64,000 nucleotides of DNA from Gemmatimonadota bacterium (GCA_002727195.1 PBWH01000005.1:300566-364565); one strand, 5' to 3'; counted from the first letter of the stretch, positions 29,939 through 41,578 are shown. Made by a program: numbers and translations. The notes: generated from the sequence alone by a model not told the origin.

Positions 29939-30205
29939 TTGACGTTCGATTACAGCGTGCAAAACATCATTGACGGCCAGGGGATTCCAATCGTGATCAC
30001 CGGAATGGTGATCGTCTTTTTTGCCCTGACGTTGATCAGTCTGTTTATCGCCGCCCTGCCGCGCATCCTGGAGCGGATCGCCCAGCGTTGGCCCGAACCG
30101 GAGGGGCACCACCACAGCGCTCCAGCGGCCGCCCAGGCCGGGGTCACGGACGACGTCGTCGCGGCGATTGCTGTGGCTCTTCACCGTCGACGGGCCCGAG
30201 GTTAG
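29939..30205 (+). CDS. oadG: sodium-pumping decarboxylase gamma subunit
   Basis: 88 residues from TTG at 29939, which follows AGGGATGG; no ATG is available in frame. One transmembrane helix (about 17-42, IPIVITGMVIVFFALTLISLFIAALP) is followed by a short charged, His-containing tail. OadG binds the complex together and aids zinc binding in Na+-translocating oxaloacetate or related decarboxylases. It is first in oadG-oadB-oadA, and the oadB start lies only 5 bases beyond its stop. Confidence 0.85.
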   Translation: MTFDYSVQNIIDGQGIPIVITGMVIVFFALTLISLFIAALPRILERIAQRWPEPEGHHHSAPAAAQAGVTDDVVAAIAVALHRRRARG

Positions 30206-30209
30206 CAAA

Positions 30210-31337
30210 ATGGGCATCCTGTTTGAATTCCTGCACACCACGGGCTTCGCCCAGATGACGATCGGCAACATCGTAATGATCGTCATTGGCATCATCTTCA
30301 TCTCTCTCGCCATCACGAAAGACTACGAGCCCCTACTGCTGGTCCCGATCGGGTTCGGCATCATCGTCGGAAACATCGCCTACATCGATACGATGTCGCT
30401 CGGTGTGTATGACGAAGGCAGCGTCCTCTATTACATCTACTTCGGCGTCAGCCAGGGCATCTTCCCGCCGCTGATTTTCCTCGGCATCGGCGCGATGACC
30501 GACTTCTCGACGATGCTCTCGAACCCCAAGCTCATCCTGTTGGGTGCGGCCGCCCAGATCGGCATCTTTCTGACACTCATCGGCGCCCTCTACCTCGGGT
30601 TCAGTCCGAACGAGGCCGGTGCGATCGGGATCATCGGCGGTGCGGACGGGCCGACGGCCATTTTCCTGTCGGCCAAACTGGCCCCTCATTTGCTCGGAGC
30701 CATCGCGATCGCCGCCTACTCGTATATGGCGCTCGTCCCGGTCATCCAGCCCCCGATCATGAAGCTGCTGACCACGCGCGAGGAACGGCTCATTCGGATG
30801 CCGGACCCGCGCGCCATCTCGCGGCGGGAACGCATCATCTTCCCGATCGCCGCTTTCCTGATCGCGGCCATGATTGCGCCCGGATCGATCGCCCTGCTTG
30901 GTATGCTCTTCTTTGGCAACATACTCAAGGAATCCGGCGTCACCGAGCGGCTCGCCAACTCGGCGAGAAACGCGATGATCGACATTGTCACCATCCTGCT
31001 GGGTTTCTCCGTCGGCGCCAGCACCCAGGCGCAGACATTCCTGAAACCGGATTCGCTCCTCATCTTCGGACTCGGCGCTCTGTCATTCGGAATCGCCACG
31101 GCCGGTGGCATCCTGGGGGCGAAGTTTATGAACCTATTTCTGAAGCAGAAGATCAACCCCCTTATCGGCGCTGCCGGCGTGTCGGCCGTCCCGGATTCCG
31201 CGCGTGTGGTGCAAATGGTCGGTCAACAGGAGGACCCTCAGAACTACCTCCTGATGCACGCGATGGCCCCGAACGTCGCCGGCGTCGTCGGCTCGGCCAT
31301 TGGGGCCGGTATCCTTTGGTCCGTCCTGGTCAAATGA
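30210..31337 (+). CDS. oadB: sodium ion-translocating decarboxylase beta subunit
   Basis: 375 residues from ATG 30210, preceded by CCGAGG; the ORF-track GTG at 30168 lies inside oadG. This polytopic membrane subunit decarboxylates carboxybiotin and pumps Na+ outward. Conserved family blocks IGIIGGADGPTAIFLSAKLAP (about 145-165), YSYMALVPVIQPPIMKLLTTREER, SARNAMIDIVTILLGFSVGAST and the C-terminal NYLLMHAMAPNVAGVVGSAI are all present. It is nearly all membrane segments and intact. Confidence 0.95.
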   Translation: MGILFEFLHTTGFAQMTIGNIVMIVIGIIFISLAITKDYEPLLLVPIGFGIIVGNIAYIDTMSLGVYDEGSVLYYIYFGVSQGIFPPLIFLGIGAMTDFSTMLSNPKLILLGAAAQIGIFLTLIGALYLGFSPNEAGAIGIIGGADGPTAIFLSAKLAPHLLGAIAIAAYSYMALVPVIQPPIMKLLTTREERLIRMPDPRAISRRERIIFPIAAFLIAAMIAPGSIALLGMLFFGNILKESGVTERLANSARNAMIDIVTILLGFSVGASTQAQTFLKPDSLLIFGLGALSFGIATAGGILGAKFMNLFLKQKINPLIGAAGVSAVPDSARVVQMVGQQEDPQNYLLMHAMAPNVAGVVGSAIGAGILWSVLVK

Positions 31338-31397
31338 TTCCGGTCGGCAGCGACTCTCCAGACAATGAGCGATGACTCCACGAGCTGAGGTGAAACC

Positions 31398-33185
31398 GTG
31401 AAAAAGAAAGTCACCTTCATGTGCACGGCGTTCCGCGACGGCTTCCAATCGGCCTACGGCGCCCGCGTGCTCACCAAGGATTTCCTCCCCGCCCTTGAGG
31501 CGGCCAGGGATGCCGGGATCGACTACTTCGAGGCAGGCGGTGGCGCGCGATTCCAGTCGCTCTACTTCTACTGCAACGAAGACGCTTTCGACATGATGGA
31601 CGCCTTCCGCGAGACGGCCGGGCCGGACGCCAACCTCCAGACGCTGTCCCGCGGTGTGAACGTGGTCGGTCTCGAATCGCAATCGAGCGACATTGTGAAT
31701 CTGCACGCGCTGATGTTCAAGAAGCACGGCATCACGACGATCCGGAATTTCGACGCCCTCAACGACGTCAACAACCTGATCCACAGTGGGAAGTGCATCG
31801 TGGACGCCGGCCTCAAGCATCAGGTCTGCGTGACGTTGATGGAGCTCCCCCCCGGCTGCGAGGGTGCCCACGACCCCGACTTCTACGAGCGGACGCTCCG
31901 TGAAATCCTGGACGCCGGCATCCCTTACGATTCGGTCTGCTTCAAGGACGCCTCCGGCACGGCAGTCCCTTCGAAGGTCCACGAAACCATCAAGCGTGCA
32001 CGGGCGATGCTCCCCGAGGGCACCTTCATCCACTTCCACACGCACGAGACGGCCGGCATATCGGTCCAGGCCAACATGGCCGCTCTGGATGCCGGGGCGG
32101 ACGCCATCGACCTGTCGCTGGCGCCGTGCTCTGGCGGAACCTGCCAGCCCGACGTGCTCGTGATGTGGCACGCTCTGCGTGGCTCTGATTACGATCTGGA
32201 TCTCGACATCGAAAAGGTTCGGGAAGCCGAAGAAGTCTTCAAAGAGTCGATGGCGGACTACTTCCTCCCTCCGGAAGCAACTGCAGTAGAACCGCTTATC
32301 CCCTGGAGCCCTATGCCGGGTGGCGCGTTAACGGCCAACACCCAGATGCTGCGCGACAACGGCATCATGGACCGCTACCCGGAGATGATCCGGGCGATGG
32401 GCGACGTCGTCCGGAAGGGCGGCTTCGGCACATCGGTCACGCCGGTCTCGCAGTTCTACTTCCAGCAAGCCTTCAACAACGTGATGTTCGGAGAATGGGA
32501 GCGGATCGCCGAGCCCTATGGCCAGATGGTCCTCGGCTACTTCGGGAAGACCCCGGCGATACCGGATCCGGAAGTCGTCAGGATCGCCTCGGAACAGCTG
32601 GAACTCGAGCATACGACGCAGCCGCCGCTCGAAAGAAACGACGCCGATCCGAACAAAGGCATTGAAGCGGCCAAAAAACAGCTCGAAGCAGAGAACTTGC
32701 CGACGACGGACGAGAACATCTTCATCGTCGCCGCGTGCAAAGAGAAGGGCCTCGCGTTCCTCAAGGGGGAAGGCGAAATCGGCGTTCGGAAAGTCGACCG
32801 ACAGGCCGAGGCGCCACCGACCGACGGACCTGCCAGCTACACCGTAACGGTTGACGGGAAATCGTTCCAGCTGTCGATCGACGGCGACCGGGCCACGGTG
32901 AACGGGAAGACGTATCAGGTCAGGCTTTCCGATGGCGAGACATCAGCCGCCGCTCCTTCCGCGGGAGGCGCGGGACAGGCGGTGACAGCTGAGATGCCGG
33001 GTAAGGTGATCCGGATCCTCGCTTCCCCGGGCAGCGCCGTCTCCGAAGGGGACCCGCTTCTCGTGTTGGAAGCCATGAAAATGGAAATGCAGATTGCTTC
33101 GCCCACCAGCGGTACCGTTCAGTCGGTCGACGTCTCAGAGGGAGAGCAAGTCACAGCCGGGGCCACACTTCTCACGATTGGTTAG
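31398..33185 (+). CDS. oadA: oxaloacetate decarboxylase alpha / pyruvate carboxylase subunit B-type, biotinylated
   Basis: 595 residues. An HMG-CoA-lyase-like TIM barrel (about 5-300, TAFRDGFQSAYGARV..., GGARF, and a metal site in FHTHETAG) carries out carboxyl transfer to or from biotin. A conserved PYC/OADA domain follows, then a C-terminal biotinyl domain with EAMKMEMQ near 560. With OadB and OadG it should form a Na+-pumping oxaloacetate decarboxylase; the biotin carboxylase half of pyruvate carboxylase is not adjacent. The gene lies 60 bases after oadB. Confidence 0.93.
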   Translation: MKKKVTFMCTAFRDGFQSAYGARVLTKDFLPALEAARDAGIDYFEAGGGARFQSLYFYCNEDAFDMMDAFRETAGPDANLQTLSRGVNVVGLESQSSDIVNLHALMFKKHGITTIRNFDALNDVNNLIHSGKCIVDAGLKHQVCVTLMELPPGCEGAHDPDFYERTLREILDAGIPYDSVCFKDASGTAVPSKVHETIKRARAMLPEGTFIHFHTHETAGISVQANMAALDAGADAIDLSLAPCSGGTCQPDVLVMWHALRGSDYDLDLDIEKVREAEEVFKESMADYFLPPEATAVEPLIPWSPMPGGALTANTQMLRDNGIMDRYPEMIRAMGDVVRKGGFGTSVTPVSQFYFQQAFNNVMFGEWERIAEPYGQMVLGYFGKTPAIPDPEVVRIASEQLELEHTTQPPLERNDADPNKGIEAAKKQLEAENLPTTDENIFIVAACKEKGLAFLKGEGEIGVRKVDRQAEAPPTDGPASYTVTVDGKSFQLSIDGDRATVNGKTYQVRLSDGETSAAAPSAGGAGQAVTAEMPGKVIRILASPGSAVSEGDPLLVLEAMKMEMQIASPTSGTVQSVDVSEGEQVTAGATLLTIG

Positions 33186-34535: not shown

Positions 34536-35255
34536 ATGACCGATTCACCGGATAAGACTCCCGTCGTCCTTGTCGCAGACGACGACGAAGACCTCCTCGA
34601 GTTTCTGGTCCTTAGACTCGGGCGCGAACCGTGGGATTTTCGGAAGGCGAGCGATGGTCAGGAAGCGCAGGATATCCTCCTGACCCGGGAGGTCGATGTG
34701 GCGGTTCTCGATCTCAAGATGCCGAAACTGGACGCCCTCAACATACTCAAGTCTGTCCAGCAGGAAGGCGTCGAGTCCGATATCATCATTCTCACAGGTT
34801 ACGCGACCGTCGAGTCCGCCGTTCTGGCGATGCGGCGGGGGGCCCGCGATTTCCTGCAGAAACCCTTCAAGACCGAAGAACTCCTGACCATCGTGCGCCG
34901 GTTGTTGGATGCGCGCTACCCCTCGACGAGAACACTCGCGCAGCGACTGGAAGCGTATGTCAAGGATCACGCCTACGATCCAGCCCTTCGCATCGATGAT
35001 CTCTGCAGCCACTTCAACATCTCCCCGCGATACGTGTCGAAACTGTTCCGTGAGCACCTGGGGACTTCGTTCAAGCGCAGCGTGGCCGAGCACAGAGTGC
35101 ATCGGGCGAAGCAACTGATCGAATCCGGGGACGAGCCACTCTACTCGGTCGCAGACAAGTGTGGGTTTCGCAACTACCGTCAGCTGACTTCGACCTTCAA
35201 GAAGGTCGAGGGGATGCTCCCGCGAACGTATCGCGAAGTGTGCGACAAGACCTGA
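34536..35255 (+). CDS. response regulator with AraC-type output domain
   Basis: 239 residues, intact. The receiver domain (about 7-125) has the acidic pair in VADDDED, phospho-acceptor Asp near 57 in VAVLDLKMP, Thr in ILTGYAT and Lys in FLQKPFK. A C-terminal AraC/XylS DNA-binding domain (about 135-235) has two helix-turn-helix units (IDDLCSHFNISPRYVSKLFREHLG and SVADKCGFRNYRQLTSTFKK). Such regulators often control carbohydrate uptake or use. The adjacent upstream sensor is broken. The next operon, rraA and neighbours, starts 138 bases downstream past a terminator and is a plausible target. Confidence 0.9.
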   Translation: MTDSPDKTPVVLVADDDEDLLEFLVLRLGREPWDFRKASDGQEAQDILLTREVDVAVLDLKMPKLDALNILKSVQQEGVESDIIILTGYATVESAVLAMRRGARDFLQKPFKTEELLTIVRRLLDARYPSTRTLAQRLEAYVKDHAYDPALRIDDLCSHFNISPRYVSKLFREHLGTSFKRSVAEHRVHRAKQLIESGDEPLYSVADKCGFRNYRQLTSTFKKVEGMLPRTYREVCDKT

Positions 35256-35276
35256 GCGCGCCAGGCGTTCAGATCC

Positions 35277-35316
35277 GGGGATGGGCACCAGCCGGGGCCC
35301 ATCCCTTCTTTTCTTA
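35277..35316 (+). terminator. rho-independent terminator
   Basis: GGGGATGGGC, loop, GGCCCATCCC, then TTCTTTTCTT, directly after the receiver-AraC regulator. Confidence 0.8.
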
Positions 35317-35392
35317 TCGAGTTTTCGGATTCCCCAAACCAGAAACACTCCCTACCTTGACGACTTGTCACGCCAAAATCGAAAGGTAATCC

Positions 35393-36139
35393 ATGAATTC
35401 AGGCGGTATCGAAACTCCAGACATCACGCGTCCGCCACAGGACCTGATCGACAGTCTCAAGGGGATCGGCAGCGCGACAGCGGCCGGCGAGCTGTCCAAG
35501 CTCGGTGTCTGCAACCCGCATCTGCAGGGACCGCTGCCTCGACTGGAAGGCGCGAGCATCGTGGGTCCTGCGATCACGCTCCAGTTCCTTCCGAAGCGGG
35601 AAGACATCCACAAGCCCGGTGAATACTCAGGCCCTGAGCGACAGCTCCATCGCCACGCGCTGTATCACACCCAACCCGGTGACGTGGTTGTCGTCGATGC
35701 ACGTGGAGATATGATGAGCGGTGTTTTCGGCGACATGATGCTCACCTACTTCAAGGGGCGAGGCGGCGCTGGCGTGATCGTCGATGGCTGTATTCGCGAC
35801 TGGCCAAACGTGCAGCGTCTCGAGATTCCGCTCTGGACTCGCGGGTTCACCCCCAACTTCCACACGCAAACCAACATCTGGCCAATGGGAGTAAACGTCC
35901 CGATCGGTTGCGGTGGGGTTCTAGTAATGCCCGGCGACATCATCGTTGCTGACGACGATGGTGCCGTCGTCGTCCCCGTCGATCTCGCCCCCGAGCTGGC
36001 CAAGAAGGCGGGCGAACACGCCGAGTGGGAAGTCTTCAGCCGCCAGCGCCTCCTCGAGGGTGGCGATCTGCGGAAGTACTACCCGCTGACAGATGAGGCG
36101 CGCGAAGAATACGAAGCCTGGAAAAAGAAACAGAAGTAA
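35393..36139 (+). CDS. RraA family protein (aldolase/oxaloacetate decarboxylase-like)
   Basis: 248 residues. RraA-like proteins include 4-hydroxy-4-methyl-2-oxoglutarate/4-carboxy-4-hydroxy-2-oxoadipate aldolases and the RNase E regulator RraA. The family block GGAGVIVDGCIRDWPNV (about 123-139) contains the metal/substrate-binding Arg-Asp. GDVVVVDARGDM lies near 98 and MPGDIIVADDDGAVVVP near 180. Its context with sugar-type enzymes favours a small-acid aldolase or decarboxylase over an RNase regulator. First gene of a three-gene operon; next start is 5 bases on. Confidence 0.88.
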   Translation: MNSGGIETPDITRPPQDLIDSLKGIGSATAAGELSKLGVCNPHLQGPLPRLEGASIVGPAITLQFLPKREDIHKPGEYSGPERQLHRHALYHTQPGDVVVVDARGDMMSGVFGDMMLTYFKGRGGAGVIVDGCIRDWPNVQRLEIPLWTRGFTPNFHTQTNIWPMGVNVPIGCGGVLVMPGDIIVADDDGAVVVPVDLAPELAKKAGEHAEWEVFSRQRLLEGGDLRKYYPLTDEAREEYEAWKKKQK

Positions 36140-36144
36140 ACACC

Positions 36145-37854
36145 ATGACACACGGCGGACGCCCCGCTCCTCCTCGTCTTACCTATGAACGCCTCCTTCG
36201 TCACCTCGACGATCAGGTCGCTTCCATCCTGCCCAACCAGATCGTCGACCCCGACCATCCCGAACACGGCGGATTCGTCAGCGCTCAGGAGGGGATGGCC
36301 GGGATGGGTCAGATCGGATGCGCACAATCACTGGGTACGGCCTGGCTCCTGGAGGGATCCCGCTACCACGGCGACCCCGCCCTTCTCGATCGGCTGGAGC
36401 GTTCTGCCGCCTTCTGTCGGGCCATTCGTCGGCCGTCGGGACGCTACGATCTCGCAACCACGAACTGGGATTGTGGACCCTACACCGCGTTTATGGTCCA
36501 GGCCATCGCGCCCGTCGTGGCGGCCGCCCGAAACAGCGACCAGGAGGGGTCGGACCGGGTCGGCGAGGTGTATGGCGAAATCATCCGGACGGCCGTCCCC
36601 GGAATGGCCACCGGCGGCTTCCACACCCCGAACCATCGCTGGGTCCTGACCTCCGCTCTCTCGCAAGCGCTCACCCTGTATCCTGATCTCGACGTCGCGT
36701 CCGTCATCGAATCCTACCTGGCGGAAACCATCGACATAAACCCGGATGGCGAGTATACCGAGCGAAGCACAGCCGTCTATAATGCAATCTGTAACCGATC
36801 GCTTCGCCTTACAGCCGAACACTTCGACAGACCAGATCTGCTCGATGCTGTACGGCTCAACTTGGACGCCGCCTATCGGCTCCTCCACGCCGACGGATCC
36901 GTTGTCACGAGTCTCTCCAACCGCCAGGATCACGGCCAGCAGATCATCCCGGTCTCGATGGTCGACAGCTACTATGCGCTCGCCAGGGTCGACGGAAACG
37001 GCTTCTACGCCGCCGTAGCCGACTGGCTGGGATCCCACCAGCGTGCGGCCGTGCCCTGGTCACTGGAGCCTTATCTGTCGCATCCGGAATGGCGGATCGA
37101 TGACCTCGACCGCGAACCCCTTCCTCCGACCTACACGCATCATATGCCGGCTTCAGGTGTGTGGCGCTCACGACAGCACGACACAAGCGCCACAGCCGCC
37201 ACCGGCATCAGCACCCCTTTCTCGGTCAAGCACGGGGACATCGAAGTGGGCGTGAAGATCTGCGCCACCTACTTCGGCAGAGCACAGTTCAGGGCCGACC
37301 GCCTGGAAGAGACTGAGAAAGGAATCAGCCTGACTTTCGACGGTGCAGGTGGATGGCGGGATGCGCCTGGCTACTACCACCCGGTCGGACGACCCGTCAC
37401 GATGGATGAGTACGCCTACGTTATGCGTGAGCGCGATTACACGGCATATGACCGTCTGTCGATGACCCTCGACATCGGCCAGGTCCCGGGAGGGTTCGAC
37501 CTCCGGCTTTGTACCTCAGAGCCCTTCAACAACATACCCCTTGAGATCCTGTTCGCCTTCAGCCCCGGCGGAACGCTCCATACCGACTCGCTAGTCGCCG
37601 ATGGCGAGGCTGGGCACACGGCATTTCTGCGTTCGGGAACGGCCACCTACCATCAGGGTGCAGACGCCATCTTGGTCGGTCCCGGCGCTCACGCCCATCG
37701 GATGCGTCAGATGCGGAACAGCGAGCCGGAGCCAAACGCATTCCGGCTGTTGACCATGCTGCGACTCCCGGTCGACCACACATTCCATATCCGGACGGGA
37801 ACCTGGTCCGAAGCCACCGAAGCTATCCAGATCGATGGAGGAGATAACGCGTGA
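36145..37854 (+). CDS. unrecognised 569-residue protein, probably alpha/alpha-toroid carbohydrate-active type
   Basis: No signal peptide, so cytoplasmic. The N-terminal about 330 residues show repeated helical pairs with aromatic/acidic clusters (RYDLATTNWDCGPYTAF, GGFHTPNHRWVLTSALSQAL, NPDGEYTERSTAVYNAICNRSL, VVTSLSNRQD) as in (alpha/alpha)6 toroids of heparinase, alginate-lyase and glycosidase families. Residues about 340-560 are strand-rich, resembling the beta-sandwich that follows such toroids. I cannot assign a family or activity. It lies between the RraA gene (5-base gap) and the zinc dehydrogenase (4-base overlap), so it probably acts in the same pathway. Confidence 0.6.
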   Translation: MTHGGRPAPPRLTYERLLRHLDDQVASILPNQIVDPDHPEHGGFVSAQEGMAGMGQIGCAQSLGTAWLLEGSRYHGDPALLDRLERSAAFCRAIRRPSGRYDLATTNWDCGPYTAFMVQAIAPVVAAARNSDQEGSDRVGEVYGEIIRTAVPGMATGGFHTPNHRWVLTSALSQALTLYPDLDVASVIESYLAETIDINPDGEYTERSTAVYNAICNRSLRLTAEHFDRPDLLDAVRLNLDAAYRLLHADGSVVTSLSNRQDHGQQIIPVSMVDSYYALARVDGNGFYAAVADWLGSHQRAAVPWSLEPYLSHPEWRIDDLDREPLPPTYTHHMPASGVWRSRQHDTSATAATGISTPFSVKHGDIEVGVKICATYFGRAQFRADRLEETEKGISLTFDGAGGWRDAPGYYHPVGRPVTMDEYAYVMRERDYTAYDRLSMTLDIGQVPGGFDLRLCTSEPFNNIPLEILFAFSPGGTLHTDSLVADGEAGHTAFLRSGTATYHQGADAILVGPGAHAHRMRQMRNSEPEPNAFRLLTMLRLPVDHTFHIRTGTWSEATEAIQIDGGDNA

Positions 37855-38885
37855 AAGCCGTGATGCTCAGCGAACCCGGACGAATCGAAGTCATCGAAGC
37901 CCCGGACGAGCGGGACCCGGGACTGGGAGAGGTCAGGCTCCGGATCGAAGCCTGCTCGGTCTGCGGATCGGATTTGGAGGGACTTCACGGCCAGCACCCG
38001 AAAATGACATTCCCTCGCGTGATGGGGCACGAAGTCGCGAGCGTCGTCGATGCCGTTGGCGCCGGCGTGTCGAACCTTACCGTTGGGGATCGTGTTGCGG
38101 GAACAGGCCACCGTGCTTGTGGATCTTGTGCTGTGTGTCGGTCCCATCGATTCGCGGAATGTGCGAATCCGGGAGGCCCGGGATTCACGGCCCACGGAGC
38201 ATACGCCGAGTATATGACCGTGATTGCCCAAGACCTCGTCCCGATACCGGAATCCCTTACCGACGACGAAGCTGCCGTCGCTCAGCCGGTCTGCATCGCG
38301 AACCACGCCGTCTCCGGACGAGCCCGCGTCGAAGTCGGCGAAACGGTCCTTATCCAGGGATGCGGTCCAATCGGCCTGTCGGCGATGATGCTCGCAAAGC
38401 TGAAGGGCGCTCGCGTCATCTCGACCGACACCGTCGACTACCGGCTACAAAGAGCAACAGAACTGGGAGCTGACCTGGCGATCAACACTTCAAAAGAGGA
38501 CGTCTTCTCTCCGATTAGGGATCTTACAGGCGGTGCGGGTGCGGACAAGGTGATCGAATGCGTCGGCGGCGACCAGGATGACACCCTCCGGGAAGCCGTG
38601 GAAGCGGTACGGTCGTCAGGGCTGGTCGTGGTGGTCGGCTCGTTTGCCGCGAACCGTGCCACCATCCCGATCATCGACTTCAAGTTCAGTGAAAAATCGA
38701 TCATCGGCTCTCAGGGCATGCCCGAGGGCTATCCACCCGTCTTCGACCTGATGGCTGACGGGACGCTCGATGTAAAGCCGCTGATTACACACCGCGTGCC
38801 CCTGGACCAGGCCCCCCGCGCCCTTGACCTGATGGACCGCAAGGCCGAGGAGGTGATGAAGGTCGTCCTCCAGCCCCAGACCTGA
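37851..38885 (+). CDS. zinc-dependent alcohol dehydrogenase family protein
   Basis: 344 residues from GTG overlapping the previous stop by GTGA. A medium-chain dehydrogenase: catalytic zinc Cys in CSVCGSDLEGLHG near 36, GHEV near 60, and structural-zinc cysteines in RACGSCAVCRSHRFAEC near 86-102. The Rossmann motif GCGPIGLSAMM lies near 172. It resembles sorbitol, threonine or galactonate dehydrogenases; an exact substrate cannot be read. Last gene of the rraA-toroid-dehydrogenase operon, expected to oxidise a polyol or sugar-acid intermediate. Confidence 0.9.
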   Translation: MKAVMLSEPGRIEVIEAPDERDPGLGEVRLRIEACSVCGSDLEGLHGQHPKMTFPRVMGHEVASVVDAVGAGVSNLTVGDRVAGTGHRACGSCAVCRSHRFAECANPGGPGFTAHGAYAEYMTVIAQDLVPIPESLTDDEAAVAQPVCIANHAVSGRARVEVGETVLIQGCGPIGLSAMMLAKLKGARVISTDTVDYRLQRATELGADLAINTSKEDVFSPIRDLTGGAGADKVIECVGGDQDDTLREAVEAVRSSGLVVVVGSFAANRATIPIIDFKFSEKSIIGSQGMPEGYPPVFDLMADGTLDVKPLITHRVPLDQAPRALDLMDRKAEEVMKVVLQPQT

Positions 38886-40394: not shown

Positions 40395-40751
40395 ATGGAT
40401 CAGAAAGCGTTCTACGAAGCCAAGCTTGCATACGAGATCGACGCCTACGACCTCAACGCGAAACGTGAGAACGGTGATAAGGTCTTCGTACTCGATGCGC
40501 GATCGCACGAAGCTTTTACAGAGGAGCACATTCCTGGCGCCATAAGCCTGCCGCATCGAAAAATGAGCAAGGCGACTACCGCGCAGATCGACAGGAACGC
40601 TCTGATCGTCACCTACTGTGATGGGATCGGATACAACGCCTCGACGAAAGGCGCATTGTGAATGTTGGGCCTGGGCTTCATTGTCAGGGAACTACAGGTC
40701 GGACTCGTCTGGTGGAAACAGGACGTCTATCCCAAGGTGGCTGGCTCGTAA
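40395..40751 (+). pseudogene. rhodanese-domain protein with an in-frame TGA
   Basis: Full-length single-domain rhodanese frame of 118 codons: KVFVLDARSHEAFTEEHIPGAISLPH, then active-site loop TYCDGIGYNASTKGAL, TGA at 40659, and MLGLGFIVRELQVGLVWWKQDVYP, stopping at TAA 40749. The catalytic Cys is in TYCDG. Homologues usually have CNASTKGA where this has YNAST. The TGA replaces what is usually Lys or Arg. Its stop overlaps the start of the next PhyH gene (TAATG), so the two were one unit. Confidence 0.75.
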
Positions 40752-41578
40752 TGTCCTCACACACTATCACCTATCAGATCCTAAAAACACACAACACCGG
40801 GGGTGTCGAGCTCTTGCGCGACGTAAAAGTTCACGCGACCGAAGAAGAACTCGACCACCTCGACCAGCAAGGTTACCTGGTTCGTGAACGTTTGTTCCAG
40901 GGCGAGCACCTGGAGCAGCTGCGTGACGCGACGGATCGGCTGTTCGATGCAGAGGTCGATCTCGCCAAACGGAAGACGAGTAAACGTTCGTAGGGACCGA
41001 TCCTCCGCTACCTGGAGGACGAAGACCCTGTCTTCCTCTACCTGATCCAGTTCGAGCCGATCGTCTCGATAGCACGCGCGATGATGGGACCGAAGTTTCG
41101 GCTGCGAGGACTGAGCACACGGATCAGCTTCCCTGGAGAGGAGATCCAGTCCGCCCCCTACCATCAACACCTTCGCCTGAATGCGAACCCACGTCCTCGC
41201 TGGTTCTACGACCCACACTGTCTGGATGCCCTGATCTATCTTGATGACCTCAACAACGATACAGGCCCTGTGTGCGTGGTACCCGAATCGCACAAGTGGG
41301 TTGACCGTGAGCCGTCCTTCCGTCACTTCGACTCGCTCGAAAACGAGATCGTCTTCCGTGTTCCGGCGGGCAGCGCCTTCCTGATGCACGGCAACGTCTG
41401 GTACCGCGCCTGTCCCACAGTCGCCGCCCGTCGCCGAATGCTGATCCTGAGCTACACCCCCTGCTGGCTCCGGCGGACCCCTCACGGCACCCGGCCCGAG
41501 AACCCACTGACCGCCTACATCGCCGATGACGCCGACGAACAACTCCGCGAACTCATCGGCACCTCAGGTTACAGCTGA
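40751..41578 (+). pseudogene. PhyH family protein 2, single amber stop
   Basis: A 275-codon PhyH-type frame is interrupted only by TAG at 40991. Before it: EEELDHLDQQGYLVRERLFQG. After it: GPILRYLEDEDPVFLYL...ISFPGEEIQSAPYHQHLRLN...DALIYLDDLNNDTGPVCVVPESHKW...FLMHGNVWYRACPT. The usual HxD is HQH here, while the distal His (MHGN) is present. The absence of the acidic ligand is unusual and may reflect a distinct subfamily or decay. Overlaps rhodanese by TAATG. Confidence 0.75.

Follow-up and report, generated by a model that had tools for sequence, protein, structure and literature searches.

1. Background

Polysaccharide lyases of the heparinase II/III-like superfamily (PF07940; PL12, PL15 and PL21, also PL17, PL33, PL35 and PL39) are the described enzymes against which the protein discussed here is best read. 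In most of these families an Asn, a Tyr and a His of the β-domain make up the catalytic set, and in the PL15 exo-heparinase a His directly follows the Asn (Asn336-His337) (PMC12088678). Where PL15 and PL21 enzymes act on L-iduronate, a His of the toroid serves as the base and the Tyr as the acid, and the families that act on D-uronates pair the Tyr with residues of the β-domain (PMC11848413). Broad breakdown of pectin, alginate and other acidic polysaccharides has already been reported for the Latescibacteria (PMC4454575).

The locus described below lies in a metagenome-assembled, 5.4 Mb genome of a Gemmatimonadota bacterium, within a 64,000-nucleotide stretch of DNA that we refer to as the window and from whose first letter all positions are counted. 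It consists of a gene for a 569-residue protein of a family without a name, flanked by genes for an RraA-family protein and a zinc-dependent dehydrogenase, behind a response regulator (Table 1). The local operon is itself of minor interest; the value of the locus is in the unnamed lyase-fold family that it brings to light.

Table 1. Features of the locus in window coordinates, with the residues of the 569-residue protein discussed in Section 6.
Feature	Position	Strand	Basis and remarks
Receiver + AraC-type HTH response regulator	34536..35255	+	239 aa; Pfam Response_reg 3.6e-22, HTH_18 2.5e-20
Intrinsic-terminator-like hairpin, U-rich tail	35277..35315	+	between regulator and RraA; stem then UUCUUUUCUU
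RraA-family protein, NCBIfam PRK08245 subfamily	35393..36139	+	248 aa; PF03737 1.5e-34
Cytoplasmic lyase-fold protein of 569 aa, family without a name	36145..37854	+	predicted from model, Foldseek and relatives
H160-T-P-N163-H164 of HTxNHRWV motif	36622..36636	+	motif invariant in 52 sequences
E206-R-S208-x-x-x-Y212 of DGxxxERSxxxY motif	36760..36780	+	E206, S208, Y212 invariant
T255-x-x-S258-x-R260-Q-D262 block, putative substrate contacts	36907..36930	+	T255, S258, R260, D262 invariant in 52 sequences
Zinc-dependent MDR dehydrogenase	37851..38885	+	344 aa, GTG start; PF08240/PF00107

2. The Locus and Its Flanking Genes

The original prediction described three intact, tightly spaced genes, and its coordinates are exact throughout, as are the gap of 5 bases between the RraA and lyase-fold genes and the 4-base overlap (GTGA) between the lyase-fold and dehydrogenase genes; all four ORFs, the regulator included, are full-length and coding as judged by homology. 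Its description of the surroundings as a region where most accessory genes are broken is right only in part, since some downstream PhyH and methyltransferase-like ORFs do look fragmented, but the upstream oxaloacetate decarboxylase genes and at least two downstream PhyH genes are intact. At 40658-41578 a PhyH-like dioxygenase gene appears to be broken into two ORFs that differ in frame, probably a pseudogene or an error of assembly, with several intact PhyH paralogues nearby. The decarboxylase genes, of the sodium-pumping type, occupy 29942-33185 (γ-like, β and α, with β and α intact); β and α are syntenic in a genome of the sister genus (G001), where a histidine-kinase-like ORF precedes them.

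The receiver-AraC gene had been put forward as the natural regulator of the trio. Between its stop codon and the RraA gene, however, stands the hairpin with the U-rich tail (MFE -23.1 kcal/mol, z -2.9), which is not among the terminators listed by a consensus scan, and in G001 its 72% orthologue (contig C51) follows the oxaloacetate decarboxylase β and α genes, as it does in the window, with RraA 3.7 kb beyond it and antisense ORFs in between. The hairpin and this synteny together indicate that the regulator is linked to the decarboxylase region rather than to the trio. It was rejected as an operon member on these two grounds and is probably not part of the three-gene unit, belonging instead to the neighbouring decarboxylase region.

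Both flanking enzymes are of the kinds that had been predicted. Pfam, NCBIfam and PDB matches place RraA in the aldolase superfamily; it scores 301.8 bits against NF006093 (PRK08245; cut-off 208) and matches PDB entries 5x15 (6.3e-69) and 3noj, a 4-carboxy-4-hydroxy-2-oxoadipate (CHA) aldolase (7.6e-24). The NCBIfam CHA aldolase model is matched at 4.7e-34, with 117.9 bits against an equivalog cut-off of 179. A part in the breakdown of sugar acids is supported by the contexts in which the RraA gene occurs: in one genus its neighbours encode KDPG aldolase, kinases of the PfkB and ROK types, an amidohydrolase and a protein resembling 3-hydroxyisobutyrate dehydrogenase, and in other genomes it has a DUF6785 membrane protein, a sulfatase or an enzyme of the enolase superfamily nearby. 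The same three libraries class the dehydrogenase with the zinc MDR enzymes, as one of polyol/threonine-dehydrogenase type (PDB 2dfv, 5.6e-46), with zinc ligands read from its sequence as C38 and H60-E61 and structural ligands as C90, C93, C96 and C104. It fails the NCBIfam equivalog cut-offs for scyllo-inosose 3-dehydrogenase (IolM; 203.1 vs 450) and threonine dehydrogenase (Tdh; 196.8 vs 458), and it has a single close orthologue, 72% identical, on contig C31 of G001, away from both RraA and the lyase-fold gene.

3. The Trio as a Unit

Genome context gave no sign that the trio is conserved, an outcome that the original prediction had named as counting against it. Across about 100 loci of the 569-residue family no RraA homologue turned up within about 8 kb, the G001 copies of RraA, the dehydrogenase and the nearest lyase-fold orthologue are on three separate contigs, and the trio arrangement recurs in none of the genomes examined, a set that held no other genome of the window's genus. 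The neighbourhood survey and the distribution over contigs in G001 led us to reject a conserved three-gene module. They also favour the view that the three genes came together by chance in one lineage, with RraA ancestral, the other two inserted later and no common pathway, as does the place of RraA among the core genes of the class, where it occurs in varied contexts in 46 of 60 genomes (mostly with a best match of 66–85% identity). Set against this are the spacing of the genes on one strand, in which the short gap and the overlap suggest co-translation and co-regulation in the source genome, and the suitability of all three gene types for sugar-acid breakdown. Weighing these, we give chance juxtaposition slightly less than even probability. 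It concerns the operon and is compatible with a lyase reading of the 569-residue protein. A joint pathway of the three enzymes, whose cooperation we infer, is no more than plausible; in it the sugar that the lyase releases, or a sugar acid derived from that sugar, may be a substrate of the co-translated dehydrogenase and of the RraA-type aldolase.

4. Fold and Distant Homology of the 569-Residue Protein

Neither single-sequence nor profile searches returned a convincing Pfam, NCBIfam or PDB match by sequence for this protein, and no match to a characterised family with an unrelated role, which would have told against the original prediction, was encountered; matches to 3-dehydroquinate dehydratase at 0.04 are short chance matches and were set aside. 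An AlphaFold2 model, built like the calls of invariant residues from 52 family members, has a pLDDT of 94.5 and a pTM of 0.92 and consists of an all-helical toroid (helices, residues 14-317) followed by a β-sandwich (strands, 329-563). The best 50 Foldseek matches in the PDB are all polysaccharide lyases of the same architecture or human dermatan sulfate epimerase, with E-values down to 2.7e-10, and the lyases among the fold matches represent PL8, 12, 15, 17, 21, 33, 39 and related families; the likeness is global only, with a query-normalised TM of at most about 0.56 and identity of 9–14%. As modelled, then, the protein has the toroid and antiparallel β-sandwich of the heparinase II/III-like superfamily, and the earlier impression of an α/α toroid in a cytoplasmic protein of lyase-type fold is upheld by the fold prediction, the structural search, the profile comparisons below and the lack of a signal peptide (Section 5).

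Homology was tested independently of the model by comparing alignments as profiles, with control families for reference, because single-sequence profile comparison lacked power. Against seven heparinase II/III proteins of the same genome the comparison gave E = 8e-5 and an HH-suite probability of 61%, and against all twenty of the genome's heparinase II/III proteins a score of 48.2 over 253 columns, where 18 unrelated control families reached 25.1 at most. Of two further alignments of the genome's heparinases, one of three sequences and one of six long ones, neither was matched significantly, which confines the link to a part of the superfamily. The PL8 profile scored 23.1, within the control range, and a Lyase_8_N match at 0.0014 appeared in one of the 52 members. 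None of the 52 passes the gathering cut-off of Pfam Hepar_II_III_C (PF07940), and the window gene is not among the genome's 32 PF07940 matches. It is nonetheless well supported that the protein belongs to the heparinase II/III-like lyase superfamily, as a distant branch.

5. Distribution and Genomic Surroundings of the Family

Relatives of the protein are encoded at 408 or more loci of GTDB species genomes, in every case without a family name in the libraries searched. The phyla concerned include Chloroflexota, Armatimonadota, Bacillota, Spirochaetota, Verrucomicrobiota and Acidobacteriota, with Caldicoprobacter oshimai and Paenibacillus thalictri among the named species; the family is present in 42 of 100 related genomes, and no viral relatives were found. 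The source genome itself holds four further full-length paralogues (52, 43, 38 and 31% identity). Its five copies are scattered over the family tree and are therefore not recent duplicates, an origin that this dispersal rules out. The window copy forms a long branch in a mostly Latescibacterota clade, and the syntenic orthologue in G001 is that of the copy on contig C15 (C15:57818-59479), not of the window copy; the window copy keeps all family-invariant residues and departs from the consensus at only 3 of 62 strongly conserved columns.

Family members begin about 24 residues ahead of the first conserved Gln and have no recognisable signal peptide by a hydropathy test, so the family probably acts on imported oligosaccharides. 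Its neighbours in various phyla differ from locus to locus and indicate no single substrate: a GH88 unsaturated uronyl hydrolase gene lies 26 bases upstream of the lyase-fold gene at one locus (L106), genes for an apiosidase-like protein and a GH78 rhamnosidase accompany it at another (L122), and GH38 (L136), GH5 (L125), an FGGY kinase together with an MFS transporter (L133), ABC sugar transporters and MFS transporters are found elsewhere. A Pfam tally of neighbours is dominated by WD40 cross-hits and yields no one recurrent partner. Within Latescibacterota the recurrent upstream partner is a Gfo/Idh/MocA oxidoreductase, not RraA, directly upstream in at least nine Latescibacterota-type loci and overlapping by 4 bases in seven.

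Three further arrangements were observed. At L083, L087, L089, L093 and similar loci the overlapping Gfo/Idh/MocA gene mostly stands behind genes for a 265-aa Pfam-less protein and a DegT-like protein. In Clostridia a protein of 725-734 aa without a Pfam match, a possible conserved partner, has its gene a short way upstream of the lyase-fold gene (L122:1997-4198, L130:5786-7960, L137:5815-7989), directly so in L130 and L137 and with two genes between in L122. One lineage has membrane proteins of the DUF6785/DUF6784 type (L067:570-2483, L195:9508-11484) beside the lyase-fold gene, another has them beside RraA, and they are candidates for a transporter link between the two.

Several of the source genome's 32 PF07940 matches are clustered on contig C23, and the genome also has two PL8-type genes; no GH88 partner scored above cut-off there. 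In a genome of this size, such a number of predicted heparinase II/III proteins indicates a strong specialisation on acidic polysaccharides.

6. Candidate Active Site and Activity

In both profile comparisons N163 falls on the heparinase Asn, and in the first N163-H164 falls on the N-H of L140; Y212 falls on the heparinase Tyr, with DGxxxERSxxxY aligned to the heparinase DGxxxExSxxYH. Judged by this alignment and by the invariance of N163, H164 and Y212, the family appears to possess the toroid Asn (or Asn-His) and the Tyr about 50 residues apart. A catalytic His of the β-domain or an HxHxD metal site, which most of these lyases cannot do without, was not found: no conserved His lies 130-166 residues after Y212, and the only strongly conserved His of the β-domain, H518, is 306 residues past it. 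With an Asn-His pair and a Tyr present and the β-domain His and HxHxD absent, the simplest mechanism is one in which imported uronate-containing oligosaccharides would be cut by β-elimination, N163 being the candidate neutraliser of the uronate carboxyl group, H164 the candidate base that takes the C5 proton and Y212 the candidate acid that protonates the leaving oxygen. With moderate confidence we take the 569-residue protein to be a cytoplasmic oligosaccharide lyase of a distant heparinase II/III-like branch that acts by uronate β-elimination, its activity and substrate class being inferred from fold, residues and gene context.

A lyase fold may also carry another activity, be it hydrolysis or C5-epimerisation of the kind seen in dermatan sulfate epimerase. 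Dermatan sulfate epimerase 1 (6hzn) is among the fold matches, lyases and mammalian epimerases have a conserved fold and active-site features in common (PMC11848413), and the β-domain His of most lyases is missing here; but the GH88, rhamnosidase and sugar transport neighbours suggest breakdown over polymer modification, and a cytoplasmic location is ill-suited to epimerisation of a polymer, so we regard another activity as unlikely. Quite improbable is an elimination from an oxidised (keto) sugar, in which a Gfo/Idh/MocA enzyme or the zinc dehydrogenase would oxidise first and the lyase-fold protein then cleave the glycoside, for although the Latescibacterota-type oxidoreductase genes and the overlap of the window's sugar-type dehydrogenase with the lyase-fold gene speak for it, the aligned Asn and Tyr are uronate-lyase residues for carboxylate neutralisation and C5-proton chemistry, and sampling of other phyla showed no such Gfo/Idh/MocA link.

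To return to the uronate lyase, a wider proposal, which we make tentatively and hold to be nearly but not quite evenly poised, is that the family represents phylum-spanning, unclassified intracellular lyases that would use a toroid-only Asn-His and Tyr, with no His or metal in the β-domain, to act on a uronate that is L-configured or unusual in some other way, and hence a new polysaccharide-lyase family. If these proteins are lyases, uronate breakdown gains an intracellular branch through them, and they offer a natural test of how far enzymes can do without the β-domain His and the metal site.

7. Comparison with Described Systems

The window RraA passes the PRK08245 cut-off but is under that of CHA aldolase, and the dehydrogenase has both zinc sites and full-length similarity to the zinc MDR dehydrogenases IolM, Tdh and RspB, yet scores far under every equivalog cut-off. 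For the 569-residue protein, PL8 hyaluronate, chondroitin and xanthan lyases give the best Foldseek E-values, and their catalytic residues, like the candidates proposed here, are all in the α domain; however, the PL8 His nine residues before the Tyr is absent (the equivalent position, 203, holds Glu in the window protein and a residue other than His in the sampled members), and the protein is shorter and cytoplasmic.

With the heparinase II/III-like lyases it has in common the α/α toroid and β-sandwich, the aligned catalytic Asn and Tyr and the DGxxxExS...Y motif, the spacing from Asn to Tyr being 49 residues as compared with about 53-57 for the heparinase-type residues of PMC12088678 and PMC11848413. 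It differs from them in that its family lies below Pfam detection, at about 9–14% identity, is cytoplasmic and has neither the β-domain His nor the HxHxD metal motif. The closest residue set to its N-H pair and Tyr without a β-domain His is that of PL15 and PL21 acting on L-configured uronates, and by this analogy L-configured uronates would be the first substrates to consider.
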